NCBI GenBank assembly: GCA_001797315.1
Contig: MGPC01000016.1
Coordinates: 1 to 36,303, forward strand
From: Curvibacter sp. GWA2_64_110
Lineage (GTDB): Bacteria > Pseudomonadota > Gammaproteobacteria > Burkholderiales > Burkholderiaceae_C
Reading direction: 5' to 3'
DNA: 36,303 nucleotides
The position numbers and the translations under genes were made by a program. Shown here piece by piece: positions 21,691 through 36,303 of this stretch (position 1 is its first letter; the number at the start of each line of letters is the position of its first letter). Under the pieces are notes generated by a model that worked only from the letters and a program-made list of their open reading frames with translations, was not told where the DNA came from and ran no database searches.

Positions 21691-21717
21691 TTATTCGGCC
21701 TGGCCCCGAAAACATTA
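21691..21717 (-). promoter_or_regulatory. Candidate sigma28-like promoter upstream of fliF
   Basis: On the minus strand TAATGTTT (21710-21717) and GCCGAATAA (21691-21699) resemble the sigma28 boxes TAAAGTTT and GCCGATAA. The spacer is 10 instead of 11 bases and the -10 box has an inserted A. It lies 50 bases before the chosen fliF start. fliF is usually an earlier-class gene, so this could be chance. Confidence 0.3.
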
Positions 21718-21815
21718 GGATGAAAAGCCCCGGATTTCCCCGCCATTTCAAAATAGTGGCAGCCGCAGCCCGGCGCTAGGATCGCTGCAACCCTTTTTTC
21801 CTCCGGGACAGCACC

Positions 21816-22988: not shown

Positions 22989-24431
22989 TTATGAACTACT
23001 CTTGTTCCACTGAGTCACCTGCTGGCTGATGTAGCTGTTCAATGCCGTCAGGCCGGCCATCTTCGAATCCAGCGCGCTGTACTGCGCCCGCAGCCGTTTT
23101 TCCACCAGCGCAACCCGTGCGTTGAGCTTGTCCTGGTCTTTCGAATTGCGCGTGAGTGCCGTCTGCAGGGCGTCCGACTTGGCGGTCACCGTACCATCGG
23201 CCGCCAGCAGGCCATCCGCAAACGCCTTGATCTTGAGGCCAAAACCATCATTTGCAGTGCCCGTGTTGTCGGTGGTAAACAGCGCCGCAAGGTTGGTCGG
23301 ATCCTTCAGAGCGGTATCGAGCTTGCTGCTGGAAAGCGTCAGCAAACCACCGCGCTGCATATCCAGCCCAATGTCTGCCAGACGCGAAAGCGTCGAACCG
23401 GTGGTACTTGATGACCCCAGCAGGCTGCGCATGGCATTTTGCAAGCCAGTGATCACGCTATCGCCCTGCATCACCCCCCCGGACTTGCTGGCCGCGTCGT
23501 ACTTGGTGGCCTCGGTCAGGGTCTTGCTCAGACTGTTGTAGGAAGCCATGAAGTCCTGAACATTCTTCTTCATCGTGGCCGTATCGTCGGCCAGGGCCAC
23601 CGTCACCGGCGAAGTGGTGACCGCCGCAAAGTTCAGCGTCAAGCCGGGCACCGCATCGGCCAGCGTGCTGTTGGCCGATTGCACGGCGATGCCGTTGATG
23701 GTGGCCTGGGTATTCAGGCCCTTCTGGTAGGTGTTAGCCGCCATGCCAAACGAGCCGTTGGCCGGGTCAAAGGCCAAGCGCGACAAGCCGGCACTGTCAT
23801 TGTTGATCCCGTCACTGTCACCCGCCACCTGGATACGAAACCCCGTGGCCTCGCCCGTGCTGTTGGAGCGCATCAGCAGGCGCTCGCCCGAAGCGTCCCG
23901 CAAAACAGTGGCCGTGACACCGGCCGATGCGGCGTTGATCTTGGCAGCGATTTTTGTGAGTGTGTCCTCACCGGCGCCAATTGCCACACTGATGGTAGAG
24001 GCCGAGCCTGCTGTGAAGGCGGGTGTCCCGGTGTAGTTCCAGGTCCCGATATCGATATTGAGCGTCCCAGTCCCGATCGCGGAATCCACGGTCACGGCGG
24101 CAGAAGCGGTTGACTGTGCCGCGGCCATCTGCTGGACCTCGACGCTGAAGGAGGTCGCCGAAGCGGCTCCGGTCACGCTGCCGGTGACGGCGCTCTCGTT
24201 GGACGATTTGACAGTCACCCCGGTCCAGGAACTCGCCGTCGCCAGCTTGCTCGCCGCCGAAGACAGTGCCGCCACCTGCGACTTGATCTGGCCGACCAGA
24301 GACACTCGCGCCTGGATGGTCGACGCCTTGGTTTTCAAGGTGGTAAGCGGCTGCTTTTCGAGCGCCGTCATCTGGCTGATGATGCTTTCAACATCAATGC
24401 CGCTGCCAATGCCGATCGATGAAACTGACAT
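22989..24431 (-). CDS. fliD: Flagellar filament cap protein FliD
   Basis: 480 residues (E. coli 468). The N-terminus SSIGIGSGIDVESIISQM is diagnostic, followed by a coiled-coil stretch with TLKTKASTIQARVS. The middle is Ser/Thr/Ala-rich with a flagellin_IN-like segment near residue 270 ([18 protein letters not shown]). The C-terminal FliD domain ends with ALDSKMAGLTALNSYISQQV. FliD caps the filament and folds flagellin subunits. ATG 24431 has AGGAGG 4 bases upstream; the in-frame start at 24503 would run through two leader hairpins and is unlikely. Confidence 0.94.
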   Translation of the reverse strand: MSVSSIGIGSGIDVESIISQMTALEKQPLTTLKTKASTIQARVSLVGQIKSQVAALSSAASKLATASSWTGVTVKSSNESAVTGSVTGAASATSFSVEVQQMAAAQSTASAAVTVDSAIGTGTLNIDIGTWNYTGTPAFTAGSASTISVAIGAGEDTLTKIAAKINAASAGVTATVLRDASGERLLMRSNSTGEATGFRIQVAGDSDGINNDSAGLSRLAFDPANGSFGMAANTYQKGLNTQATINGIAVQSANSTLADAVPGLTLNFAAVTTSPVTVALADDTATMKKNVQDFMASYNSLSKTLTEATKYDAASKSGGVMQGDSVITGLQNAMRSLLGSSSTTGSTLSRLADIGLDMQRGGLLTLSSSKLDTALKDPTNLAALFTTDNTGTANDGFGLKIKAFADGLLAADGTVTAKSDALQTALTRNSKDQDKLNARVALVEKRLRAQYSALDSKMAGLTALNSYISQQVTQWNKSSS

Positions 24432-24445
24432 ATATCCTCCTGGCT

Positions 24446-24504
24446 CTTGGTCGTTCGTGCTCATCCTGGCCGCGGCGGGCTCCATCAGCCCCTGAACGAC
24501 CAAG
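24446..24504 (-). promoter_or_regulatory. Structured fliD leader: 11-bp inverted repeat next to the ribosome site
   Basis: CTTGGTCGTTC (minus strand 24504-24494) pairs perfectly with GAACGACCAAG (24456-24446). The 37-base loop contains a small GGGCT/AGCCC hairpin. The 3' arm ends 4 bases before the AGGAGG of fliD. It abuts a second hairpin at 24505-24532. The structure could tune fliD translation or mark the fliC transcript end. Confidence 0.5.
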
Positions 24505-24532
24505 GGCGGCGACAGTCAAAACCGTCGCCGCC
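24505..24532 (-). terminator. GC-rich hairpin between fliC and fliD, terminator or attenuator-like
   Basis: GGCGGCGAC and GTCGCCGCC form a perfect 9-bp stem around a 10-base loop, 54 bases after the fliC stop. No T run follows on the minus strand, so it is not a textbook intrinsic terminator. It may limit read-through from the strong fliC promoter into fliD or protect the fliC mRNA 3' end. Confidence 0.5.
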
Positions 24533-24585
24533 TTGAAAACCATTCCAGTCTAGCCAGATCTGGACGGTTCAATCGCGAGAAAAGC

Positions 24586-25776
24586 TTACCTCAACAGGGC
24601 CAATACACCCTGCGGCAGCTGGTTGGCCTGCGCCACCATCGCCGTACCAGCCTGTTGCAGGATCTGCGTGCGCGACAGATTGGCGGTTTCGGTCGCGAAG
24701 TCAGCATCCATGATCCGGCCGCGGGAAGCGGAGATGTTCTCCACCATGATGCCGATGTTGGACACAGCGTTCTCGAAACGGCTCTGGACGGCACCCAACT
24801 TGGCACGTGCACCATTGACCTGGTCAATCGCCGAGTCGATTTTCGCCAGGGCTTTCCAGGCATCGCCTTGGGTGCTGACCGACAGCGTGTCGATGCCGGT
24901 GGCGGTCGTGGCTGCCAACGTGCTGGCGGACACACCGGTGGTGGCGACGGTAAAGCCGGCCAGTGTGGCGACGGCGGCCACGCCAGAGGTATCCAGCGTG
25001 GACGAATAGAGCTCCACATCGTAGGTACCACTGGAGTTCTTGGTCAGGTAGGCCGTCACGCCGGTATCGGAAGTCTTGCGGTTGATCGCCTCGACCACCT
25101 GGCCCAGACGCTCGTCGCCCGAAGTGGCGGCATCAACGGCACCGAGGTCGTACGAGGTGCCGCCGGTGATCGAGATGCTCAGCGTGCCGGTGGCGATGGC
25201 CGTCAGCGTGGTGACGGCCGAAGCCGCGATACCGGCATTGGCGGTATTGGAAGCGTAGTCGATGTCAGCCAGGCCGCTGGCCTTGGCATTGGTCAGGGCG
25301 CCCACGGTGATGTTGTCGCCGGAGTTGGCGCCGACCTGGAACACGGCGCCGGCAAAGGTACCGTCCAGAATCTTCTGGTTGTTGAAGGTGGTGGTCTTGC
25401 CCACGCGGTCGATTTCATCGGCCAGCTGCTTCACTTCAGCCTGCAGGGCGGTACGGTCGGCCGAGCTGTTGGTGGAGTTGGCCGACTGCACGGCCAGTTC
25501 ACGCATGCGCTGCAGCATGTCGCCGACCTTGCCCAGGGCGCCTTCAGCCGTCTGCGCCAGCGAGATGCCGTCATTGGCGTTACGGGCGGCGACGTTCAGA
25601 CCTTTGGCCTGGGTGTTCATGCGCTCGGCGATGGCCAGACCGGCCGCGTCGTCCTTGGCGCTGTTGACACGCAGGCCCGAGGACAGGCGCTGCATGGAGG
25701 TAGCCAGCGAGCTGGCCGACGAAGTCAGATTGCGCTGGGCGTTCAACGAAGGGATGTTCGTGTTGATGCTAGACAT
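24586..25776 (-). CDS. fliC: Flagellin, first copy
   Basis: 396 residues. The conserved N-terminal D0/D1 part (about 1-145) shows [31 protein letters not shown] in parts and [15 protein letters not shown]. The variable centre (about 170-290) is Ala/Thr/Gly-rich with a flagellin_IN motif ([17 protein letters not shown]). The C-terminal D1/D0 (about 310-396) ends [20 protein letters not shown]. It is secreted and polymerises into the filament; no cysteine is present. AGGAG lies 8 bases before ATG 25776, and a strong sigma28 promoter sits at 25839-25865. Codons over 25484-25722 are base-for-base identical to the second flagellin. Confidence 0.96.
25484..25722 (-). repeat. Left arm of a 239-bp perfect inverted repeat (flagellin 5' region)
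   Basis: I compared this stretch base by base with 26135-26373 on the opposite strand and found no difference over 239 bases, including all third codon positions. Immediately outside, the two genes diverge at many synonymous positions. The arms are separated by 412 bases. Confidence 0.95.
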
Positions 25777-25838
25777 TTCAATACTCCTAAAAGGTAGATG
25801 TCAATTGACGAACCCTTTTGAGAGGCCCGTTGCAAGTG

Positions 25839-25865
25839 TTTTCGGGCGGTTTTCAGGAAACTTTA
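25839..25865 (-). promoter_or_regulatory. Sigma28 promoter of fliC
   Basis: On the minus strand a perfect TAAAGTTT (25858-25865) is followed after 11 bases by CCCGAAAA (25839-25846), matching GCCGATAA at six of eight positions. This is the canonical flagellin promoter layout for FliA. The predicted start of transcription, about base 25831, gives a leader of about 55 bases. Confidence 0.8.
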
Positions 25866-25884
25866 GGGCTGAATACCCAGGCCG

Positions 25885-25920
25885 CCCCACAAGGTTGTCG
25901 GCCGGCCTACCTGAGTGGGG
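25885..25920. promoter_or_regulatory. 36-bp imperfect palindrome between the two flagellin genes
   Basis: Nested arms CCCCAC/GTGGGG, AGGT/ACCT and a central GGCCGGCC are arranged nearly symmetrically. It lies about 20 bases upstream of the fliC -35 box, in the centre of the region between the two flagellin genes. It could be an operator or a cruciform-forming site; function is unknown. Confidence 0.45.
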
Positions 25921-25923
25921 GGC

Positions 25924-25952
25924 GCCAAATCCCCGGATTTGCCGGCTTTTTT
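25924..25952 (+). terminator. Hairpin followed by six T residues, possible attenuator before flagellin 2
   Basis: AAATCC/GGATTT pairs, and GCC (25924-25926) can pair with GGC (25944-25946) across a 3-base bulge; TTTTTT follows at 25947-25952. In the plus direction this resembles an intrinsic terminator lying 125 bases before the second flagellin. The loop is tight and the stem imperfect. Confidence 0.35.
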
Positions 25953-26077
25953 ACCCTTTTATTGCAGCAACACCCCTTTACATCCGTCCGCACAATTCCT
26001 CAACCGCCAAAACCGTCAGCGCGTCGTGCTGACTTCAAACCGGCACTGGCCACTTTCTTACGTAAAGGAGCTTCGAA

Positions 26078-27277
26078 ATGGCTGCTACGATCAACACGAA
26101 TATTGCGTCGCTGAACGCCCAGCGCAATCTGACCTCGTCGGCCAGCTCGCTGGCTACCTCCATGCAGCGCCTGTCCTCGGGCCTGCGTGTCAACAGCGCC
26201 AAGGACGACGCGGCCGGTCTGGCCATCGCCGAGCGCATGAACACCCAGGCCAAAGGTCTGAACGTCGCCGCCCGTAACGCCAATGACGGCATCTCGCTGG
26301 CGCAGACGGCTGAAGGCGCCCTGGGCAAGGTCGGCGACATGCTGCAGCGCATGCGTGAACTGGCCGTGCAGTCCGGCAATTCCACCAACAGCCCGGCTGA
26401 CCGCATCGCCCTGCAGGCTGAAGTATCCCAATTGCGCGACGAAATCGACCGCGTTGCCAAGCAAACCACCTTCAACAACCAGAAGATTCTGGACGGCACC
26501 TTTGCCGGCGCCGTGTTCCAGATCGGCGCCAACTCGGGTGACACGGTGTCGGTGGGTGCACTGACCAATGCCACCGCGCAAGGCCTGTCCAGGATTGACT
26601 ACGCCTTCGATGCCAGCACCAACACCGGCATTGCCGCCTCGGCCATCACCACCCTGACGGCCATCACCACTGGCACACTGAGCATCTCGATCACCGGTGG
26701 CACCTCGTACGATGTCGGCGCCATCAGTGCCGCCACGACCGGCGACGAGCGGCTGGGCCAGGTGATCGAGGCGATCAACCGCAAGACACCCGACACCGGC
26801 GTCACCGCCTACCTGGCCAAGGCCACCGACGGCAGCTACTCGGTCGAGCTGTATTCTTCTTCCCTCACCACCTCCGGCGTTGCCGCCGTCGCCACACTGG
26901 CCGGCTTCAGCACCGCGACCACGGGCGTGGCCGCGACGACACTGGCGGCAACCAGCGGCACCGGGGTTGACACCCTGTCGGTCAGCACCCAAGGCAGCGC
27001 CTGGCTGGCACTGAAGAAAGTCGACTCGGCCATCGACCAGATCAACACTTCGCGCGCCATGCTGGGCGCCATGCAGAGCCGCTTCGAGAGCGCGATCTCC
27101 AACATCGACATCCAGGTCGAGAACCTGTCCGCCTCGCGCGGCCGCATCGTTGATGCGGACTTCGCCAAGGAAACCGCCAACCTGTCGCGCACGCAAATCC
27201 TGCAGCAAGCCGGCATGGCGATGGTGGCGCAGGCCAACCAGCTGCCGCAAGGCGTCCTGGCGCTGCTGAAGGGCTAA
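26078..27277 (+). CDS. Flagellin, second copy (divergent)
   Basis: 399 residues with the same layout as the first flagellin: D0/D1 N-terminus beginning MAATINTNIASLNAQ, variable centre (about 165-295) with a flagellin_IN motif ([17 protein letters not shown]), and a C-terminus ending [11 protein letters not shown]. It differs from copy 1 mainly in the centre and in many synonymous codons at the 3' end, but not over 26135-26373. AAAGGAG lies 7 bases before ATG 26078. I found no clear sigma28 or sigma70 promoter upstream. A GTCAGC/GCTGAC hairpin lies at about 26014-26032 in the leader. A strong terminator follows. Two-flagellin filaments or alternative expression are both possible. Confidence 0.95.
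   Translation: MAATINTNIASLNAQRNLTSSASSLATSMQRLSSGLRVNSAKDDAAGLAIAERMNTQAKGLNVAARNANDGISLAQTAEGALGKVGDMLQRMRELAVQSGNSTNSPADRIALQAEVSQLRDEIDRVAKQTTFNNQKILDGTFAGAVFQIGANSGDTVSVGALTNATAQGLSRIDYAFDASTNTGIAASAITTLTAITTGTLSISITGGTSYDVGAISAATTGDERLGQVIEAINRKTPDTGVTAYLAKATDGSYSVELYSSSLTTSGVAAVATLAGFSTATTGVAATTLAATSGTGVDTLSVSTQGSAWLALKKVDSAIDQINTSRAMLGAMQSRFESAISNIDIQVENLSASRGRIVDADFAKETANLSRTQILQQAGMAMVAQANQLPQGVLALLKG
26135..26373 (+). repeat. Right arm of a 239-bp perfect inverted repeat (flagellin 5' region)
   Basis: Identical in reverse complement to 25484-25722 by direct base comparison. The spacer 25723-26134 carries the first 18-19 codons of both flagellins, both ribosome sites, the sigma28 promoter and the palindromes. 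Confidence 0.95.
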
Positions 27278-27300
27278 ATCGCTCCAGTCGCATCCCAGGG

Positions 27301-27338
27301 GGACGCATTGGTGATGGGTCATCAATGCGTCCTTTTTT
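27301..27338 (+). terminator. Intrinsic terminator of the second flagellin gene
   Basis: GGACGCATTG (27301-27310) pairs perfectly with CAATGCGTCC (27323-27332), with an inner GATG/TCAT-like pairing in the loop, and TTTTTT follows directly at 27333-27338. It starts 24 bases after the stop codon and is the clearest terminator in the window. Confidence 0.92.
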
Positions 27339-27434
27339 CATCCTGCCCATGGTCGTGCCGGGTCAAGGCCTGCTCACGCCGGCTCTGGCCGCAGCGCTCA
27401 ACTATCATCCAAGCTCAACCTGACCGGAGAGATC

Positions 27435-28283
27435 ATGCGTCAAGGCACCTTGCTCAGCGAAGCCCAGATCGCGGAATTCAGGCGCAACGGCGTCCTGATC
27501 CTGAACGGCTTCTACGATCTGGAGCACGACATTGCCCCGATCCAGCAGGCCATCTACGACCTGATCGGTCTGCTGATCGCGAAATACAAGCTCCCGATCA
27601 GCCGACCGGCTTTTTCCCCGGCCACGTTTGATGCCGGCTACCAGCAACTGATCGCCATCAACCGTGCCTACGGCGCCGAAATCTACGATGCCGTCAAGCA
27701 GATTCCGGCCTTCGCGCGGCTGGTCGCGCATCCGCGGCATGACCAGTTGTTTGCCGAACTGCGGCCCGGCTCATTCCCCGCCGTCGCGGCCGGCGGCTAC
27801 GGCATCCGCATCGACAACCCGAACGAAGACCGTTTCCGGGCCAATTGGCACCAGGAATACCCGGCCCAATTGCGCAGCCTCGATGGCCTGGTGTATTGGA
27901 GCCCGCTGGTTGCCGTGACAGAGGACATGGGACCGGTCGAGTTCTGTCCCGGCTCGCAGGTCGAAGGCCCGGTGCCGGTCCATACCCGCGATCCGCACAA
28001 CCCGGAAAAAACAGGCGCTTATTCTTTAACGCTCAAGGGCGAAGAAGCCCTGTTGCGCAAATATCCGCATGTCAGCCCCCTGACATCGCCCGGCGACCTG
28101 GTCGTGATCGACTTTCTCGTGCTGCATGCATCCGGCCACAACCGCAGCCAGCGCTCGCGCTGGACCATGCAGCTGCGCTACTTCAATTTCCTTGAACCCA
28201 CCGGCCAATCTCATGGCTGGCGCGGCTCGTATGCCGCCGGGGTCGATTTCCGCACCATTCACCCGGAACTCTGTGCCGACTAG
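27435..28283 (+). CDS. Phytanoyl-CoA dioxygenase (PhyH) family oxygenase
   Basis: 282 residues, soluble. The family is Fe(II)/2-oxoglutarate oxygenases. Candidate metal ligands are the His and Glu of NWHQEYPA (about 136-138) and the His of FLVLHASGHN (about 226), with the 2-oxoglutarate-binding Arg in SQRSRW about 10 residues later. The first acidic ligand is Glu, where PhyH itself has Asp. GPVEFCPGSQVEGP is the usual loop before the second half. Substrate unknown; in this setting hydroxylation of an activated sugar or of an acyl group on it is plausible. GGAGA lies just before ATG 27435. It is the first gene of a five-gene plus-strand operon. Confidence 0.8.
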   Translation: MRQGTLLSEAQIAEFRRNGVLILNGFYDLEHDIAPIQQAIYDLIGLLIAKYKLPISRPAFSPATFDAGYQQLIAINRAYGAEIYDAVKQIPAFARLVAHPRHDQLFAELRPGSFPAVAAGGYGIRIDNPNEDRFRANWHQEYPAQLRSLDGLVYWSPLVAVTEDMGPVEFCPGSQVEGPVPVHTRDPHNPEKTGAYSLTLKGEEALLRKYPHVSPLTSPGDLVVIDFLVLHASGHNRSQRSRWTMQLRYFNFLEPTGQSHGWRGSYAAGVDFRTIHPELCAD

Positions 28284-28286
28284 GAG

Positions 28287-29450
28287 ATGAGCACCTTGAA
28301 CTGCAATCTGTGCGGCACCCCGCTGGACGACAAGATCTACGACTCGGGCAACGCCAAATCCCTGACCTCACTGTGCACTGTGCACGCGGGCCGGACGCAG
28401 GTCTATGTCTGTCATGGCTGCGCCCATGTGCAAAGCGTGGCCATGGACGACATTGATGCCTACTACGACGACAGCTACGACATCCTGGTCGACAGCGAGG
28501 AAGAAGACCAGATCTACGAAGTGGTGGCGGGCCAGAAGGTCTACCGCACGGAACACCAGGTCCGCGTCCTGCGCGACAAGATCGCGCTGTCATCGGGCAT
28601 GAAAATCCTTGACTATGGTTGCGCCAAGAGCGCCACCATGCGCACGCTGGCCGGCCTGACGCCCGGACTGGAAGTCCACCTGTTCGATGTCAGCGACCGC
28701 TATCGCCCGTTCTGGGATAAGTTCATTCCCCCAGAGCGCGGTGCGACTTATGAAACACCAGCCGCCTGGACCGGCCGCTTCGACGCCGTCACCTCATTCT
28801 TCTCGCTGGAACATATGGCGCAACCGCAGGACGCCCTGCGCAAGATTGCGGCCCTGCTCAAACCCGGCGGCATCTTCTACGGCATCGTGCCGAACGTCTT
28901 TGCCAACACGGCCGACATGATTGTGGTCGATCATGTCAACCATTTCACCCGGCCCTCACTGGCCTACCTGCTGCGCGCCAACGGCTTCGAGGTCCAGGAC
29001 ATCAGCGACAGCGCCCACCGGGGCGCCCTGGTCTTCGTGGCCCGCAAGCTGGCCCAACCTGTCGGCATTCAGGCCCCGGGGCGTGATGAAGTTCAGGTAA
29101 TTGCCGAAAGCGCCCACGCCATCGCCGATTTCTGGCAGAAGGCCGGCTCGCGGGTGCAGGCCTTCGAGCAGACTCTGGCCGCCGATACCCCGGTTGCGCT
29201 CTATGGCGCCGGTTTCTACGGCACCTTCATCGCCTCCTGGCTGAAAAGCCCGCAGCGAATTCGCTGCGTGATCGACCAGAATCCTTTTCTGCAAGGACAC
29301 CCGCTCCATGGTGCACCGGTGGTCGCCCCGGCCGATTTGCCGGTCGACATCGGCGTCATGCTGGTGGGCCTGAATCCGGCCCACGCACGGCAGGTGATGG
29401 ACGACATCGCCGCCTTTGCCGGCCGGTCGCTGAACTATTTCTATCTGTAA
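28287..29450 (+). CDS. Three-domain SAM methyltransferase (C-methyltransferase type)
   Basis: 387 residues. An N-terminal zinc-type module (CNLCG, later CHGCAHVQ), a Rossmann SAM-binding domain (KILDYGCAKSATMRTL near 108, FSLEHMAQPQDALRKI, LLKPGGIFYGIVP) and a C-terminal Rossmann-like domain (VALYGAGFYGTFIASW near 299). The layout matches sugar C-methyltransferases of the NovU/TylCIII kind, though the SAM motif is unusual (GCAKS). It may act on an NDP-sugar or an acyl side chain. ATG 28287 touches the AGGAG immediately before it; TTG at 28296, three codons in, has better spacing and could be the true start. It lies 3 bases after the oxygenase gene. Confidence 0.82.
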   Translation: MSTLNCNLCGTPLDDKIYDSGNAKSLTSLCTVHAGRTQVYVCHGCAHVQSVAMDDIDAYYDDSYDILVDSEEEDQIYEVVAGQKVYRTEHQVRVLRDKIALSSGMKILDYGCAKSATMRTLAGLTPGLEVHLFDVSDRYRPFWDKFIPPERGATYETPAAWTGRFDAVTSFFSLEHMAQPQDALRKIAALLKPGGIFYGIVPNVFANTADMIVVDHVNHFTRPSLAYLLRANGFEVQDISDSAHRGALVFVARKLAQPVGIQAPGRDEVQVIAESAHAIADFWQKAGSRVQAFEQTLAADTPVALYGAGFYGTFIASWLKSPQRIRCVIDQNPFLQGHPLHGAPVVAPADLPVDIGVMLVGLNPAHARQVMDDIAAFAGRSLNYFYL

Positions 29451-29458
29451 GGCACGGC

Positions 29459-29974
29459 ATGCTGATCGGCAACAAAGTCGTTTTGCGGGCCTGGGCCCAG
29501 GAGGATCTGCCGGCACTGCAGGCACTGCGCAACGATTTTCCGCTGCAGCGCCAGCTGATGGCGCAGCCCAAGGGCAACTCGCTGGAACAGGTCCGCGCCT
29601 GGCTGAATGCACGCACCCAGGCGGCCGACGCCGTGTTTTTCATCATCGCAGACAAGACCAGCAACCAGGCCCTGGGCTACGTCCAGTTGCTGGACCTCAA
29701 CCCGCTGCATGGCACGGGTCGGCTGGGCATCTGCATCGGCCCCCAGGCCCAGGGCCGGGGCTGCGGCGGCGAAACGCTGTCCCTGCTGGCAAGCTACGTG
29801 CAGGACGTGTTCGGGCTGCGCAAGATCCTGCTGGAGGTGTTGGCCAACAACCAGGGCGCCATCCGCCTCTACCTGCGCCACGGCTACCGCGAGGTGGGGC
29901 GCTGGCTGCAGCACTTCCACACCGGCAACGGCTACGCCGATGTCGTCATCATGGAAAAACTGCTGACAGCATGA
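29459..29974 (+). CDS. GNAT-family N-acetyltransferase
   Basis: 171 residues with a complete GNAT fold: N-terminal LRAWAQEDLPALQALRND, the acetyl-CoA-binding region IGPQAQGRGCGGETL (motif Q/R-x-x-G-x-G/A) and the C-terminal NNQGAIRLYLRHGYREVG. It is RimJ/RimL-like, the group that includes sugar N-acetyltransferases such as PseH. In this operon it probably acylates an amino sugar, possibly the product of the aminotransferase at 31456-32571. AAGG lies about 7 bases before ATG 29459; the stop overlaps the next gene (ATGA). Confidence 0.86.
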   Translation: MLIGNKVVLRAWAQEDLPALQALRNDFPLQRQLMAQPKGNSLEQVRAWLNARTQAADAVFFIIADKTSNQALGYVQLLDLNPLHGTGRLGICIGPQAQGRGCGGETLSLLASYVQDVFGLRKILLEVLANNQGAIRLYLRHGYREVGRWLQHFHTGNGYADVVIMEKLLTA

Positions 29975-30690
29975 AAGTGGTCATCTCCCAGCCGATGTTC
30001 TTCCCCTGGGTGGGGATGTTCGAGCAGATCCGGCTAGCGGATGTCTACGTCCACTACGGCGACGTGCAGTTTTCCAAGGGCAGCTTCACCAATCGCGTGC
30101 AGATCAAGACGGCGCAGGGCATCAAATGGCTCACCGTGCCGCTGCAGCAGGTTTCGCTCGGGCAGTCGATCGACGAGGTTCGCCTCGACACCCGAACCGA
30201 CTGGCGGCGGCAACATGTGGACCAGCTGAAACAGGCCTATGCAGCGGCCCCCTATCGCAAGGACATGCTGGCGCTGGTGGATTCGGTCTATGCGCAGTCG
30301 CAGGCCTCCATCGGCCACTTGAGTCGGCATTCGATGGAAGCATGCTGCCGCTATTACGGGCTCGATGGCGGCCGCCGCTTCGTCGAAGTGGAACAGCTGG
30401 GTATCGCCGGCGCCAGCAGCCAGCGGGTGCGGGACATTGTCCTGGCTGTTGGCGGCACCCGCTACATCACCGGCCACGGCGCCCGTAACTACCTGGACCA
30501 TCAGTTGTTCGAGGATGCCGGCATCCGTGTCGAGTACATGGACTACGAGAAACGACCCTATCCGCAACTGCATGGCGAGTTCACGCCCTATGTGTCGCTG
30601 CTGGACTTGATCGCCAACACCGGTCCCGCAGGAATTGATTGCCTCTGTTCAGGAACCAGCTACTGGAAGGAATTTTTGAAAAATGAATGA
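29971..30690 (+). CDS. WbqC-like family protein
   Basis: 239 residues. The N-terminus VVISQPMFFPWVGMFEQI, then DVYVHYGDVQFSKGSFTNRVQIK in parts, are hallmarks of the WbqC family, which is found in O-antigen and other glycan loci and whose biochemical role is not settled. Further conserved parts are RYITGHGARNYLD and YMDYEKRPYPQLHG. No membrane segment is seen. It overlaps the acetyltransferase gene by 4 bases and the next gene by 8 bases. Confidence 0.85.
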   Translation: MKVVISQPMFFPWVGMFEQIRLADVYVHYGDVQFSKGSFTNRVQIKTAQGIKWLTVPLQQVSLGQSIDEVRLDTRTDWRRQHVDQLKQAYAAAPYRKDMLALVDSVYAQSQASIGHLSRHSMEACCRYYGLDGGRRFVEVEQLGIAGASSQRVRDIVLAVGGTRYITGHGARNYLDHQLFEDAGIRVEYMDYEKRPYPQLHGEFTPYVSLLDLIANTGPAGIDCLCSGTSYWKEFLKNE

Positions 30691-31417
30691 AATCGACAAA
30701 TTCAAGGAAGAGGTTCGCGCCAACATCCGCGGCCTGATGGACGACCACGACGTGCAGGCGCTGTCGCGCATCTGGGTGCGGGAAATCGCACGCCACAAGT
30801 ACGCCTACAACTTCTCCTGGATGGGACGTCCCATCATCCAGTTCCCGCAGGACATGCTGGCGATGCAGGAGATCATCTGGGCCACCAAGCCGGACCTGAT
30901 CATCGAAACCGGCATCGCCCATGGTGGCTCGCTGATCTACTACGCTTCGCTGATGGAGATGATGCAGCTCGACGGCTACGTGCTGGGCATCGACATCGAT
31001 ATCCGGGCCCACAACCGGGCCGAGATCGAAGCCCACCCGATGCACAAGCGCATCCAGATGATCCAGGGCTCCTCGATCGCCGCGGATACCGTGGCGCAAG
31101 TGGCCCAGCACGTCAAGGGCAAGAAGAGCGTGCTGGTCATTCTCGACTCCAACCACACGCACGAGCATGTGCAGCAGGAACTCAGACACTACGCTCCCTT
31201 CGTGACGAAGGACAACTACCTGGTGGTGTTTGACACCCTGGTGGAAGACATGCCGGACGACCTGATCCAGGACCGTCCCTGGGGCAAGGGCAACAACCCG
31301 AAAACCGCAGTGCGCGAGTTCCTGAAGTCGAACGATCAGTTCGAGATCGACAAGGCCATCGAAGCCAAGATTCTGATCACCGTCGCACCCGACGGCTATC
31401 TGAAGCGCGTGCGCTGA
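30683..31417 (+). CDS. CmcI / cephalosporin hydroxylase-family protein (probable SAM-dependent methyltransferase)
   Basis: 244 residues. The SAM-binding-like region LIIETGIAHGGSLIYYAS (about 72-90) is followed by VLGIDIDIRAHNR, VLVILDSNHTHEHV and a metal-binding-type Asp/His cluster, as in CmcI and rhamnosyl O-methyltransferases. A likely role is O-methylation of a sugar, but the family also holds proteins named as hydroxylases, so the reaction is uncertain. AAGGAA lies about 10 bases before ATG 30683. Last gene of the plus-strand glycan operon; a hairpin follows. Confidence 0.82.
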   Translation: MNEIDKFKEEVRANIRGLMDDHDVQALSRIWVREIARHKYAYNFSWMGRPIIQFPQDMLAMQEIIWATKPDLIIETGIAHGGSLIYYASLMEMMQLDGYVLGIDIDIRAHNRAEIEAHPMHKRIQMIQGSSIAADTVAQVAQHVKGKKSVLVILDSNHTHEHVQQELRHYAPFVTKDNYLVVFDTLVEDMPDDLIQDRPWGKGNNPKTAVREFLKSNDQFEIDKAIEAKILITVAPDGYLKRVR

Positions 31418-31423
31418 ACACGG

Positions 31424-31445
31424 GCCAGCCCTCTCGCGGGCTGGC
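31424..31445. terminator. Bidirectional hairpin between the two converging glycan operons
   Basis: GCCAGCCC and GGGCTGGC form a perfect 8-bp GC-rich stem around a 6-base loop, in the 38-base gap between two converging genes. No T run lies on either side, so it is probably a factor-aided or weak terminator serving both strands. Confidence 0.55.
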
Positions 31446-31455
31446 GCCTCGCCTC

Positions 31456-32571
31456 TTAACTGGCGCAGGTCGCGAGCTGCCGCACGACCGCTGCCACGCG
31501 CTCGATCTCCGGCGCCGTCATGTCGTGGTAGCTCGGCAGGTTGATGGCACGCCCTGGAATGCCCCAGGCCAATTGATTGGTCGGGCAGTCTTCGAACATC
31601 GGCAGGCTTGACAAGGGGTGGAAGAACACCCGCGCGTCGACGTTCTCCGCCGCGAACGCCTGTTGCAAGGCCTCGCGCGTCACCCCGGTTTCGGCATCGA
31701 ACACCACCGTCGGCATCCAGGCCCCGTTGACCATGCCGGACGGCTCCGGATTGAGGTGCACGCCGGGCAATCCTTGCAGCAGTTGCCGATAGGTCTGGAA
31801 AATCTCGCGCTTGCGCGCGATCAGCGCATCGATGCGCTCGACCTGCGCGCAGCCGATGGCCGCCTGCAGATTCGACATCTTGTACTTGTAGCCCACCACA
31901 TCGGGCCAGAACTGCCTGGTCTGGCCGCGGGCACGACCATGGTTGGACAGGGTCAGCACGCGCTCGTACAGCGCCGGATCCTGCGTCACGAACATGCCAC
32001 CTTCGCCGGTAGTCAGGGTCTTGGTGCCATGGAAGGAAAAACTGCCGAACACGCCCATGCTGCCGGCGTGGCGGCCGCGGTGCTGCGAGCCGATGGCCTC
32101 GGCCGCATCCTCGATCACCGGGATGCCGCGGCGCCGCCCCAAGTCCAGCAGGGCATCCATGTCGCACAGGTTGCCGTACAGGTGCACCGCCAGGATGGCC
32201 TTGGTGCGCGGCGTGATGGCCGCCTCGGCGGCAGCCGGATCGATGCACCAGCTGTCAGGCCGGATATCAACGAACACCGGACGTGCCCCGAGGTGCACGA
32301 TGGGTGCCGCCGAGGCGATCCAGTTGGTGTCGGCCATGATGACCTCGTCGCCCGGGCCGATGCCCAGCGCCGCCATGCCCATATGCAGCGCCCCGGTGCA
32401 GCTGGAGGTGGCGATCGCATGCGCCACGCCCAGATGGGCGGCGAACTGCTGCTCGAAGCGGTTGATGTACTCATAGCAGCGCTCGCCCCAGCCGTTTTGC
32501 GCGGCGTCGGTGGCATAAGCGACTTCGCGCTCGGTGATGGACGGCTTGGTGTACAGAATGCGCGGTTTCAT
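31456..32571 (-). CDS. DegT/DnrJ/EryC1/StrS sugar aminotransferase
   Basis: 371 residues, fold type I PLP enzyme. FSFHGTKTLTTGEGGMFV holds the PLP-binding Lys, so this is a true aminotransferase, not an RfbH-type dehydratase, which has His there. Other family parts are SCTGALHMGMAALGIGPGDEVIM, cited here as SCTGALHMGMAALGIG, and VIEDAAEAIGS. It resembles perosamine/viosamine synthases, which aminate C4 of a nucleotide 4-keto-6-deoxyhexose. With rfbF and rfbG upstream, the expected substrate is a CDP-4-keto-6-deoxy sugar. ATG 32571 overlaps the preceding stop (ATGA) and has no clear ribosome site, so translation is probably coupled. Confidence 0.9.
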   Translation of the reverse strand: MKPRILYTKPSITEREVAYATDAAQNGWGERCYEYINRFEQQFAAHLGVAHAIATSSCTGALHMGMAALGIGPGDEVIMADTNWIASAAPIVHLGARPVFVDIRPDSWCIDPAAAEAAITPRTKAILAVHLYGNLCDMDALLDLGRRRGIPVIEDAAEAIGSQHRGRHAGSMGVFGSFSFHGTKTLTTGEGGMFVTQDPALYERVLTLSNHGRARGQTRQFWPDVVGYKYKMSNLQAAIGCAQVERIDALIARKREIFQTYRQLLQGLPGVHLNPEPSGMVNGAWMPTVVFDAETGVTREALQQAFAAENVDARVFFHPLSSLPMFEDCPTNQLAWGIPGRAINLPSYHDMTAPEIERVAAVVRQLATCAS

Positions 32572-33791
32572 AGCAATTGCAGCGTGGGGACGGCCGTCAC
32601 GAACTGGCCACCCCACTCGCGGATATAGGCCAGCTGGCTGGTGATTTCCTCGCGCAGGTTCCACGGCAGGATCAGCACACGGTTCGGCCGGTCAGCCTTG
32701 AGGTGTGCCTCGTTGACGATCGGGATGCGGCTGCCCGGCATGCAGTGCGCCTGCTTGGCCGGGTTCAAATCCACCACGTAGGGCAGCAGGTCCGGGCGCA
32801 CGCCGGCGAAATTCAGCAGCGTGTTGCCCTTGGCGGCCGCACCGTAAGCCGCGACCTTGAGACCGTCGCGCTGTGCTTGCAATAAAAACAATAGCAGCTC
32901 GCGCTTGATCCGCAAGGCTTCGGACTGGAAATTGGCATAAAAATCGGGGCCATTCATACCGGCCGACTGCTCAATCGCCAGCAGTTCGGCCACGGCGGGT
33001 GCAGGGGTGTGCAGACCACCTTGGCGCTGGGCATAGACGCGCAGGCTGCCGCCGTGGGTCGGCAACTGCTCGACATCGATCACCTGCAGTCCGTTGGCTG
33101 CAAAGATGCGCTGCACGCTGCCCAGCGACAGGTAGGAATAGTGCTCGTGGTAGGCGGTGTCGAACTGGCACTCGCGCACCATGCGCAACAGGTGCGGGAA
33201 CTCGAATGTCGCCACCCCGGTCGACTTGAGCAGGATGGCAAAACCGGCCACGAAGTCGTTGATGTCGGGCACGTGGGCCAGCACGTTGTTGGCCGCCATC
33301 AGGTCGGCCTGCCGCCCCTGCGCCGCCAGCTCGCGCGCCAGCTCGACGCCGAAGAAGCGCTCGACAATCTCGATGCCCTTGGCACGCGCGGCGACTGCCG
33401 TGCTGGTGGTCGGTTCGATGCCGTAGCAAGGCACACCGGCCTGCTGCACATACTGCAAGAGGTAACCATCGTTGGCCGCCACCTCGACCACACAGCTCTG
33501 CGGCCCCAGGCCGAAGCGCTGCTGCATCGCCTGCACATAGGCCCGCACATGGCGCAGCCAGGAACTGGAGAAAGAGCTGAAGTAGGCGTAGTCGGCGCTG
33601 AACAGGGCTTCGCGACCGGCGTGGTCTTCCGTCTGCACCAGCCAGCACTGGTCGCACACCAGCAGACGTAGCGGGTACCAGACCTCGGGCGCATTCAGCG
33701 CCGCCGGCGTCAGGTAGGCATTGGAGGGCGGCGCACTGCCCAGGTCGAGAAACGGCCGGTGCAATTCCGACCCGCAATGGCGGCACTTCAC
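32568..33791 (-). CDS. Three-domain SAM methyltransferase, probable NDP-sugar C-methyltransferase
   Basis: 407 residues. The N-terminal zinc module has CRHCG (C3, C6) and CDQCW about 45 residues on; the SAM domain has VVEVAANDGYLLQYV, NNVLAHVPDINDFV and EFPHLLRMV; the C-terminal module has VAAYGAAAKGNTLLNF. This is the architecture of C3-methyltransferases for nucleotide 4-keto-deoxysugars (TylCIII, NovU). Placed after a dehydratase and an epimerase it should add a methyl branch. GTG 33791 has AAGGAG 7 bases upstream and overlaps the rfbC-like stop (GTGA). A cluster of rare codons around 32879-32906 matches a dispersed repeat. Confidence 0.88.
   Translation of the reverse strand: MKCRHCGSELHRPFLDLGSAPPSNAYLTPAALNAPEVWYPLRLLVCDQCWLVQTEDHAGREALFSADYAYFSSFSSSWLRHVRAYVQAMQQRFGLGPQSCVVEVAANDGYLLQYVQQAGVPCYGIEPTTSTAVAARAKGIEIVERFFGVELARELAAQGRQADLMAANNVLAHVPDINDFVAGFAILLKSTGVATFEFPHLLRMVRECQFDTAYHEHYSYLSLGSVQRIFAANGLQVIDVEQLPTHGGSLRVYAQRQGGLHTPAPAVAELLAIEQSAGMNGPDFYANFQSEALRIKRELLLFLLQAQRDGLKVAAYGAAAKGNTLLNFAGVRPDLLPYVVDLNPAKQAHCMPGSRIPIVNEAHLKADRPNRVLILPWNLREEITSQLAYIREWGGQFVTAVPTLQLL
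32879..32906 (-). repeat. Coding sequence resembling the intergenic repeat at 22157
   Basis: The minus strand reads AAGCGCGAGCTGCTAT then TGTTTTTATTGC, similar to the repeat at 22157-22184. It encodes KRELLLFLLQ in the methyltransferase with codons (CTA, TTG, TTT, TTA) uncommon in this GC-rich window. No insertion is evident in the protein. Confidence 0.35.
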
Positions 33792-34348
33792 AGTCGAACT
33801 CCTTCAAAGTCTGCCGGGATCATGGGGTGGCCTGCATCGCGCGGCGACAGTCCCTGCACCGGCTTCGGCCAGGCAATGCCCAGACGTGCATCCTGCGGGT
33901 TCAGGCCCGCCTCGGCCTGCGGCACATAAGCGCTGGAATGGCAATACAAGAGCTCGGCATCATCGCTCATGGCCTGGAAGCCGTGGGCAAAGCCCTGCGG
34001 AATCAGCAGGGCACGGCCATTGTCAGCCGACAACAGTTCGGCGTGCCAACGCAGAAAAGTCGGCGAGCCAAGACGCAGGTCAACCGCCACGTCCCACACC
34101 ACGCCGCGCAGACAGCTGACCAGTTTGATTTCCGCATGGGGCGGTGTCTGGTAATGCAGTCCGCGCACCGTGCCGGCCTGCCGGGTACAGGTGTGATTGA
34201 TCTGGGCGATGGTGCCGTACCAGCCGGCGGCATGCAGTTCATCGGCACAGAACAGACGACTCAGGAAACCACGTTCGTCCCGCAGCATTTGCCGCTGCAC
34301 CAGCTTGAGGCCGACCAGCGGTGTGTCGGTGATGAGAAAACGGCTCAT
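33788..34348 (-). CDS. rfbC: RmlC-like NDP-4-keto-6-deoxysugar epimerase
   Basis: 186 residues, single cupin domain. The RmlC pattern is intact: RDERGFLSR, VRGLHYQ with catalytic-base His (H65), a Lys (K75) in EIKLVS, VAVDLRLGSPTF, LIPQGFAHGF and the Tyr (Y141) of SSAYVPQAEAG. The family epimerises C3 and/or C5 of dTDP-4-keto-6-deoxyglucose; here the neighbours make CDP sugars, so a CDP-4-keto-6-deoxyglucose 3- or 5-epimerase is more likely than rhamnose synthesis, and rmlA, rmlB and rmlD are absent. ATG 34348 overlaps the rfbG stop (ATGA). Confidence 0.85.
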   Translation of the reverse strand: MSRFLITDTPLVGLKLVQRQMLRDERGFLSRLFCADELHAAGWYGTIAQINHTCTRQAGTVRGLHYQTPPHAEIKLVSCLRGVVWDVAVDLRLGSPTFLRWHAELLSADNGRALLIPQGFAHGFQAMSDDAELLYCHSSAYVPQAEAGLNPQDARLGIAWPKPVQGLSPRDAGHPMIPADFEGVRL

Positions 34349-35427
34349 GCGCTGGCTGCCTCGTAGTCCGCCAACTCGGCCAGGCACAGGGTGCGCGCAT
34401 CGGCACCTGCATGGTGCTGGCGGTACCAGGCCATGGTGCGGGCGACGGATTCGGACAAACCCCAGCGCGACTGCACACCCAACACCTGACGCGCCTTGGC
34501 CACTTCCAGCGCCAGCCAGCCCGCCTCGTGCGGTCCCTCGCTGCCATCGCCCCAGGTGATGTCGCCAGCACCCCAGGTCTGGCGCGCCTGCTCCACCACG
34601 GTACGCACCGTGGCGGCCTCGGCTGTCGCGGGGCCGAAATTGTAGGCTCCCGCATCCTGCGGTTTGTGCCACAGATGCTCGGCCAGGCGCAGGTAGGCGG
34701 CCAGCGGCTCCAGCACGTGCTGCCAGGGACGGATGGCGTCGGGGCGGCGAATCTCCAGTGGCCTCTCGGCCTGCCAGGCACGTACGGCATCCGGCAACAG
34801 CCGGTCGGCCGACCAGTCACCACCGCCAATCACGTTGCCGGCCCGGGCCGTGGCCACCGCCACCTGCCGTTCGTTCAGAAACGAGGCCGCATAACTGGCT
34901 GTCACCAGCTCTGCCGCAGCTTTGCTGGCGCTGTAGGGATCGTGACCACCCAGCGCATCGCCTTCGCGGTAGGGATAAACCCATTCACGGTTCTGGTACA
35001 CCTTGTCGGTCGTCACCACCACGACAGAACGCACACCATCCACCTGGCGCAACGCCTCAAGCAGGTGCACCGTGCCCATGATGTTGGTAGCAAAGGTCTC
35101 GACCGGCGCACGATAACTCTGGCGCACCAGGGCCTGCGCCGCCAGATGCAGAACGATCTCGGGCTTTGCCTGCCGCACGCGCTCTGCCAGCAACACGGCA
35201 TCGCGCAAGTCCACTGTCTGGCTATCGAGCAAACTGCCCACGCTGGCGGCATGGAACAGGCTGGGCTCGGTGGCCGGCGGCAGGGCCAGACCGGTCACCT
35301 GGGCGCCCAACCGTTGCAACCACAGGGCCAGCCAGGCCCCCTTGAAGCCGGTGTGCCCGGTCAGCAGCACGCGCTTGCCGCGCCAGAAGGACGGATCAGG
35401 CAGAAGAGAAGCGGGCGTGAGCGGCAT
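34345..35427 (-). CDS. rfbG: CDP-glucose 4,6-dehydratase
   Basis: 360 residues, extended short-chain dehydrogenase. The NAD-binding motif is TGHTGFKGAWLALWL near residue 21, the catalytic pair is in YSASKAAAE, and TTDKVY holds the catalytic Thr-Asp-Lys. ARAGNVIGGGDWSADRLLPD and RPWQHVLEPL are typical of RfbG. It converts CDP-glucose to CDP-4-keto-6-deoxyglucose. ATG 35427 shares a base with the rfbF stop (TGATG); GTG codons at 35433 and 35430 are in frame but no better placed. Confidence 0.93.
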   Translation of the reverse strand: MPLTPASLLPDPSFWRGKRVLLTGHTGFKGAWLALWLQRLGAQVTGLALPPATEPSLFHAASVGSLLDSQTVDLRDAVLLAERVRQAKPEIVLHLAAQALVRQSYRAPVETFATNIMGTVHLLEALRQVDGVRSVVVVTTDKVYQNREWVYPYREGDALGGHDPYSASKAAAELVTASYAASFLNERQVAVATARAGNVIGGGDWSADRLLPDAVRAWQAERPLEIRRPDAIRPWQHVLEPLAAYLRLAEHLWHKPQDAGAYNFGPATAEAATVRTVVEQARQTWGAGDITWGDGSEGPHEAGWLALEVAKARQVLGVQSRWGLSESVARTMAWYRQHHAGADARTLCLAELADYEAASA

Positions 35428-36197
35428 CACCACATTTTCCAGGGCGCGCGCCCTGATTGCCAGAGGTCTTCCAGCAGGTTCTTTTCGCGCAGCGTGTCCA
35501 TCGGCTGCCAGAACCCCTGGTGCTCGTAGGCCATGAGCTGGCCGTCGGTCGCCAGGCTGGTCAGTGGCTCGCCTTCCCAGCTGGTGGGGTCACCGGCAAT
35601 GCGCTCGATGCAGCGCGGCGACAGCACAAAAAAACCACCGTTGATCAGCCCGCCGTCACCACGTGGCTTTTCGGTGAAGCCGTTCACCTGGGTGCCCGCA
35701 ATCTGCAAGGCGCCATAACGGCCCGGCGGTTGCACCGCCGTGACCGTAGCCAGCTTGCCATGCGACTTGTGGAAGCGAATGGCCTCGCCGATGTTCACGT
35801 CGGCCACACCATCACCATAAGTGAAGCAGAAGGCCTCTTCGTTCACCACGTAATCGGCCACGCGGCGCAGACGGCCGCCGGTCATGGTGTTCTCGCCGGT
35901 GTCCACCACCGTCACGCGCCAGGGCTCGGCATGTTTGCGATGCACTTCCATCTGGTTGTTCGCCATGTCGAAAGTCACGTCCGACATGTGCAGGAAATAG
36001 TTGGCAAAGTATTCCTTGATCACATAACCACGGTAGCCGCAGCAGATCACGAAGTCGTTCACGCCGTGTGCGCTGTACATCTTCATGATGTGCCAGAGAA
36101 TCGGCTTGCCGCCAATTTCGATCATCGGCTTCGGCTTCAAGTGAGTCTCTTCGGAAATCCGGGTACCCAAGCCACCCGCCAGAATCACGGCTTTCAT
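35427..36197 (-). CDS. rfbF: Glucose-1-phosphate cytidylyltransferase
   Basis: 256 residues, nucleotidyltransferase fold. The N-terminal [18 protein letters not shown] and [18 protein letters not shown] (in parts) bind nucleotide and sugar phosphate; [12 protein letters not shown] and NGGFFVLSP follow. The product CDP-glucose is the substrate of the next gene. ATG 36197 has AGGAG about 8 bases upstream; a GTG at 36215 is in frame but lies before that ribosome site. The start overlaps the stop of the preceding partial gene. Confidence 0.94.
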
Positions 36198-36303
36198 TCT
36201 CTGTTCTCCTCCCACTGCTGGAACATGAGCTGGTAGGCCTGCTCGGCCCGGCGGGCAAAGGCCGCCTCATCCATCACCACGCTGGCCTGCATCTGCGGCC
36301 GCA
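36194..36303 (-). CDS. C-terminal end of an upstream gene, possibly a SPINDLY/GT41-type glycosyltransferase
   Basis: The window edge cuts this gene; 35 codons and a stop remain. The peptide ends [20 protein letters not shown], a helix with aromatic and Trp positions like the C-terminus of bacterial TPR-O-GlcNAc transferase-like proteins (family GT41), which often end in EAAYRxMWxxW. The stop TGA overlaps the rfbF start (ATGA), so it belongs to the same operon. With so little sequence the family call is tentative; the existence of the coding end is well supported. Confidence 0.45.

Follow-up and report, generated by a model that had tools for sequence, protein, structure and literature searches.

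The two divergent flagellin genes of this Curvibacter genome, g1 and g2, are joined by a perfect inverted repeat, which is very probably the track of a recent gene conversion (non-crossover homologous recombination) between flagellin paralogs, and the orientation of the spacer between them is fixed in the relatives compared. All positions below are those of the window, by which we mean the whole 36,303-nt stretch analysed, contig C16 of a draft genome of 41 contigs and 3.4 Mb. The closest named relatives by the g2 protein are Curvibacter delicatus NBRC 14919 and Curvibacter sp. PD_MW3 (92% each, among the best 80 of 329 matches), and we take Curvibacter to belong to the family Comamonadaceae.

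The exact inverted repeat

The genes and segments concerned are the following.

22989-24503, minus strand: fliD (Pfam FliD_N, FliD_C), the outside anchor for the orientation test
24586-25776, minus strand: flagellin gene 1 (g1, fliD side), 396 aa, open reading frame with Pfam Flagellin_N and Flagellin_C
26078-27277, plus strand: flagellin gene 2 (g2, far side), 399 aa, open reading frame with Pfam Flagellin_N and Flagellin_C
25484-25722, minus strand: arm 1 of the exact inverted repeat, g1 nt 55-293 (codons 19-98), exact match
26135-26373, plus strand: arm 2 of the exact inverted repeat, g2 nt 58-296, exact match
25723-26134: the 412-bp stretch between the arms, with the first 18 and 19 codons of g1 and g2 and the 301-bp intergenic spacer

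As paralogs, g1 and g2 match in inverted orientation over most of their length, at 80% (651 nt) and 89% (530 nt); what stands out is the exact block. The sequence-only reading had described the two arms as exact reverse complements, and so they are, at 239 nt each with 0 mismatches; mismatches at 25483 and 25723 bound arm 1. In g1 the repeat begins at codon 19 and in g2 at codon 20, in an identical frame, so an inversion would keep both genes in frame, as that reading had also argued from the geometry.

Evidence for gene conversion

The silent differences between g1 and g2, counted per 50 codons, are 4, 1, 9, 15, 9, 20, 10 and 17 in the source genome, 10, 15, 8, 11, 17, 13, 12 and 15 in the close relative G002, and 11, 11, 7, 12, 18, 15, 12 and 14 in G025. 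In the source genome, the two bins with the block thus have 4 and 1 codons that differ silently; in each of the six bins that follow, 9-20 codons differ silently and 4-14 by replacement, and the many silent differences earlier noticed in the 3′ parts are therefore real (9-20 per bin). The two closest relatives have the same pair in the same arrangement without the block, their longest exact g1/g2 matches being 60 and 57 nt. The exact g1/g2 run spans 54 silent-polymorphic codons, a length reached by none of 20,000 permutations (maximum 33) in a run test that treats codons as independent; the other nine pairs were unremarkable, the lowest being G025 g1/g3 (735/20,000). Since the block is longer than the silent divergence of g1 and g2 allows (0/20,000), its origin in a recent gene conversion is well supported by these comparisons.

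Within the block codons, g1 and g2 are 99.6% identical, as against 89.2% (g1) and 87.9% (g2) to their G002 orthologs. Paralogs within the source genome are thus closer here than orthologs between species, as in concerted evolution, and the block has the sharp edges, with ordinary divergence outside, that mark gene conversion. A tree of the block part outside the overlap with the third flagellin gene (g3, below) joined the g1 and g2 of the source genome with a branch length of zero, and the tree of the 3′ part set apart the three g1 genes (support 0.929) and the three g2 genes (1.000). Of the 20 diagnostic sites in the block, 11 were g1-like, 8 g2-like and 1 neither, a mixture that favours neither direction for the g1/g2 exchange. 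Elsewhere, at positions that tell g1 from g2 consistently in both relatives, g1 shows alternating g1-like and g2-like patches (for example, codons ~201-228), a pattern that suggests older exchanges. Recent gene conversion had been proposed beforehand, with silent divergence along the genes as its check; that divergence is strongly non-uniform in the source genome, which upholds the proposal, and the absence of the block from two relatives and the comparison of in-block with 3′ trees support it further.

The block lies in the conserved N-terminal flagellin domain (Pfam), which might favour a different explanation, namely that selection on codons or RNA holds the region identical without any recombination. 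We consider this extremely improbable, and the comparisons with relatives largely refute it: in both close relatives, each block bin has 10-15 codons with silent differences between g1 and g2, and orthologs differ in the block too, at 11-12 per bin between G000 and G002.

A third flagellin gene and tandem pairs

Gene conversion in g1 probably had more than one partner, as seen in the following segment.

25270-25545, minus strand: nt 232-507 of g1, a 276-nt segment that recurs without mismatch in a third flagellin gene (g3, contig C34)

The g1/g3 run comprises 67 silent-polymorphic codons, and again 0/20,000 permutations reach 67. We have compared these blocks with those of other flagellin loci, which were chosen non-randomly (the best 80 of 329 g2 matches, giving 76 distinct loci) and to which 36 stretches were added by hand (20, of which two are from the source genome, plus 16); identical spacers and gene pairs were counted once each. 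Among the adjacent flagellin pairs collected, 55 are divergent and 41 tandem. The median longest exact match is 58 nt in divergent and 54 nt in tandem pairs (Mann-Whitney p=0.75), and exact blocks of at least 150 bp occur in 6/55 and 8/41 (the 8 coming from 5 loci), respectively. Similar blocks are thus found between unlinked and between tandem copies, indicating that the inverted geometry is not needed. By the run test, 11/55 divergent versus 3/41 tandem pairs reached P<0.001, and 17 versus 11 reached P<0.01, so that divergent pairs may have the sharper blocks. Long exact blocks that are not significant by this test also exist in both divergent and tandem pairs (L079, P=0.03; L063, P=0.010), and two L055 pairs with long exact blocks gave P=0.045 and 0.078; some of the long blocks in other genomes may therefore be plain high similarity. 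The L055 locus (genome G003) has four tandem flagellins of 503 aa and a fifth that is divergent; neighbouring tandem genes share exact blocks of 308, 268 and 131 bp.

The occurrence of such blocks elsewhere also bears on the assembly, since in a draft of 41 contigs the arms could be a collapsed or chimeric copy. This is very unlikely: comparable exact blocks are found in other assemblies, including one of 353 bp in a genome that is a single 4.68-Mb contig (L048), the second block joins two contigs of the source genome, and the arms, on a single contig, have different flanking sequences.

Orientation of the spacer among relatives

Exact, inverted, in-frame arms of 239 bp around a short stretch with one sigma28-like promoter are what would be expected if crossover between the arms flips the 412-bp stretch, swapping the promoters and first codons of both flagellins. 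Such a homologous inversion switch had been put forward in the sequence-only reading, with orientation polymorphism among relatives as a check. We have used fliD, which marks the outside in 47 of the 55 divergent pairs with distinct spacers, as the anchor, the other 8 pairs being excluded from the orientation count. Spacers were taken as comparable at a local score of at least 70, and 43/47 anchored pairs have at least one such partner. All 107 comparisons of comparable spacers among anchored pairs gave the same orientation, with 0 inverted. When the best sigma28-like site in each direction is scored, the fliD-side gene has the stronger one in 47/47 pairs. The subset with exact arms of at least 150 bp agrees, the site being stronger toward the fliD side in 6/6 (5/6 have a comparable spacer); if switching were free at 50:50, six alike would arise with a probability of 0.016. 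Because related species are non-independent and most pairs lack long exact arms, the wider count speaks for a fixed arrangement more than it serves as a test of switching. The 412-bp stretch has the same orientation in the two closest relatives, and in each of the three close genomes a g1-type start is followed by a g1-type 3′ part. Eight inverted spacer pairs (score of at least 70) seen before anchoring were set aside, for all of them involve L052 or L109, two of the 8 loci without a fliD anchor, whose orientation was therefore arbitrary.

Two known systems offer a comparison. In Campylobacter fetus sap, inversion between shared gene ends moves a promoter, and in Salmonella Hin, flagellin expression follows the orientation of a promoter segment through short sites and a dedicated recombinase. 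Like sap, the g1/g2 locus has homologous gene ends in inverted orientation on either side of a promoter segment. The two orientations expected of a sap-type system were not seen among relatives with a known anchor (0/107 inverted), and as for a promoter on one gene only, there is one sigma28-like site, yet a different conserved motif lies upstream of g2. An invertase beside the segment, as in Hin, was not found either: the sole PF00239 recombinase match in the genome is on contig C5 and the locus on C16, which bears on Hin-type switching only. Surface protein variation in C. fetus is treated in PMC5634654, parts of which cite work on sap inversion without RecA. The sap system differs in that switching is observed there, while g1 and g2 keep one orientation in the relatives compared and g2 has its own conserved upstream region.

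Taken together, these counts do not support the proposed inversion switch, which we regard as distinctly unlikely. There is a similarly low probability for a milder form of it, in which a rare RecA-type crossover would flip the 412-bp stretch in a minority of cells, swapping an early, FlhDC-like promoter and a late, sigma28-like one, with conversion maintaining arms of sufficient length and selection restoring the usual orientation in every lineage.

Upstream motifs of the two genes

Three features of the spacer distinguish the upstream regions of g1 and g2.

25839-25865, minus strand: sigma28-like promoter of g1, TAAAGTTT-N11-CCCGAAAA, 14/16 to the consensus used
25936-25974, plus strand: palindromic upstream motif of g2, candidate FlhDC box, 29.7 bits, the top place in the window
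25991-25996, plus strand: CACAAT, candidate minus-10 element of g2

The earlier placement of a sigma28 promoter and the first 18-19 codons inside the 412-bp stretch is correct, with the amendment that the sigma28-like promoter serves g1 only. This promoter scores 14/16 in both close relatives too, and a Gibbs search of 27 representatives, run on the sequence preceding the fliD-side gene, returned the same sigma28-like TAAAGTTT-N11-CCCGAAAA at 26.5 bits. A site of at least 13/16 is found at the fliD-side gene in 45/47 pairs and at the far gene in 1/47, the shuffled spacers (1,100 single-base shuffles) giving at most 12. Upstream of g2, no sigma28-like site exceeds this background; the best is 9/16, and a 10/16 match overlaps the start codon.

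For the far gene, the Gibbs search gave a second motif of 22.8 bits versus 11.7-12.1 in five shuffles, an information gain that is not a clean significance value, as the search was restarted 12 times on the data and 6 times on the shuffles, and the 27 representatives are themselves related. It lies at -141 to -168, save in one ill-fitting locus (L067). Scored with a matrix from 24 representatives, the source stretch left out, the second place in the window after the g2 motif is the fliE/fliF region (16.7 and 15.3, one palindromic site read on both strands), with nothing else above 6.3 and at most 10.8 in the reversed stretch. Elsewhere, the matrix scored 28.7 upstream of g3 and 25.6 between flhC and motA; between flgA and flgB it gave 8.0, below two other places of the stretch scored (11.7 and 10.0), which counts for nothing. 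The palindromic motif is thus common to the far flagellin gene, the fliE/fliF spacer, g3, the flhC-motA spacer and most of the 27 representatives. Sites of the motif were recorded at 25936-25974, in the 21711-21760 region (starts at 21722 on the plus and 21749 on the minus strand), at L037 2464 and at L155 2620-2636.

The g2-type motif is perhaps an FlhDC box. FlhC is encoded in the source genome; the E. coli FlhDC motif is low-scoring and degenerate according to passages of PMC4183435. The sequence [ACT]ANAAT occurs at -110 to -75 in 40/47 loci (200 shuffles: mean 2.5, maximum 7), and the g2 upstream region as a whole resembles early flagellar promoters, with FlhDC and sigma70 as candidate regulators. 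Consensus scans for sigma70 promoters and for terminators over 24400-27500 returned 0 and 0 sites. A sigma54 reading of the g2 motif was dropped by eye, the minus-12 GC not being conserved. Since g3 has both the g2-type motif and a sigma28-like TCAAGTT/CCCGATAT, the two promoter classes are not cleanly exclusive.

The presumed g2 leader has an inverted repeat, GTCAGC-N7-GCTGAC (26015-26033), which is the same in three close genomes and has a 6-base loop in L061 and L135. As a special feature of g2 it was rejected, for perfect 6-bp hairpins occur in 11/47 far-gene leaders, within the shuffle range (200 shuffles: mean 4.6, maximum 11), and are commoner in fliD-side leaders, where 19/47 lies above the shuffles (mean 3.5, maximum 9).

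Proposed mechanism and known systems

We propose that paralogous flagellin genes with a common conserved N-terminal domain would recombine without crossover, probably by non-crossover recombination of the RecA type. In this way g1 very probably recombined with g2 over 239 bp and, in a separate exchange, over 276 bp with g3, which lies on another contig. Conversion homogenises the coding sequence; the intergenic spacer and the first 18-19 codons of each gene have stayed distinct, with the result that g1 keeps its sigma28-like promoter and g2 its different upstream region.

The flaA and flaB genes of Campylobacter jejuni, which are tandem, are a close parallel. These paralogs stand under sigma28 and (flaB) sigma54 promoters, and passages of PMC5126078 mention reported within-genome recombination between them; that study itself found no flaA/flaB recombination in its phage-escape mutants. 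The g1 and g2 genes are alike in being two flagellin paralogs with different promoter classes and recombination between paralogs. They differ in that they are divergent, that the second class is FlhDC/sigma70-like, as proposed above, rather than sigma54, and that a third copy is involved. The likely picture is one of flagellins under different regulation, with crossover-free recombination homogenising their coding ends, much as in Campylobacter flaA/flaB. Unlike in Salmonella Hin, there is no PF00239 gene on the g1/g2 contig. A table in PMC6053082 lists flagellin in the Alteromonadales among prokaryotic genes with long-lasting recurrent concerted evolution; this is another order, and that table row names no partial block or divergent pair. 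In the mostly open-access literature searched, the matches listed included no paper on divergent Comamonadaceae flagellin pairs, which does not prove that none exists.

Partial gene conversion among three flagellins is a known kind of event, and g1, g2 and g3 provide a clear natural case of it. They also advise caution, as perfect inverted repeats in divergent paralogs need not mean a switch. The more useful lead is that, within a single spacer, the promoter of g1 is sigma28-like and g2 is preceded by a different conserved region, an arrangement that recurs in the relatives compared. From such a divided spacer one would expect the two flagellins to be produced at different points in assembly, with recombination keeping their polymerising ends compatible.

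Other observations

A DNA search of the source genome with 24700-26200 matched its own locus and the known flagellin-match places. The 239-bp block found only distant flagellins among the best 10 of 74 plasmid records listed, and a tblastn scan of viral contigs found no relative. On contig C18 (L038, 2115-2750), there is an open reading frame with a match to the flagellin N-terminal domain and without the C-terminal domain, perhaps a remnant. Downstream of g2, the region 27435-36215 carries sugar and methyltransferase genes (PhyH, WbqC, CmcI-like, a DegT aminotransferase and sugar-nucleotide enzymes), possibly a cluster for flagellin or surface glycosylation.
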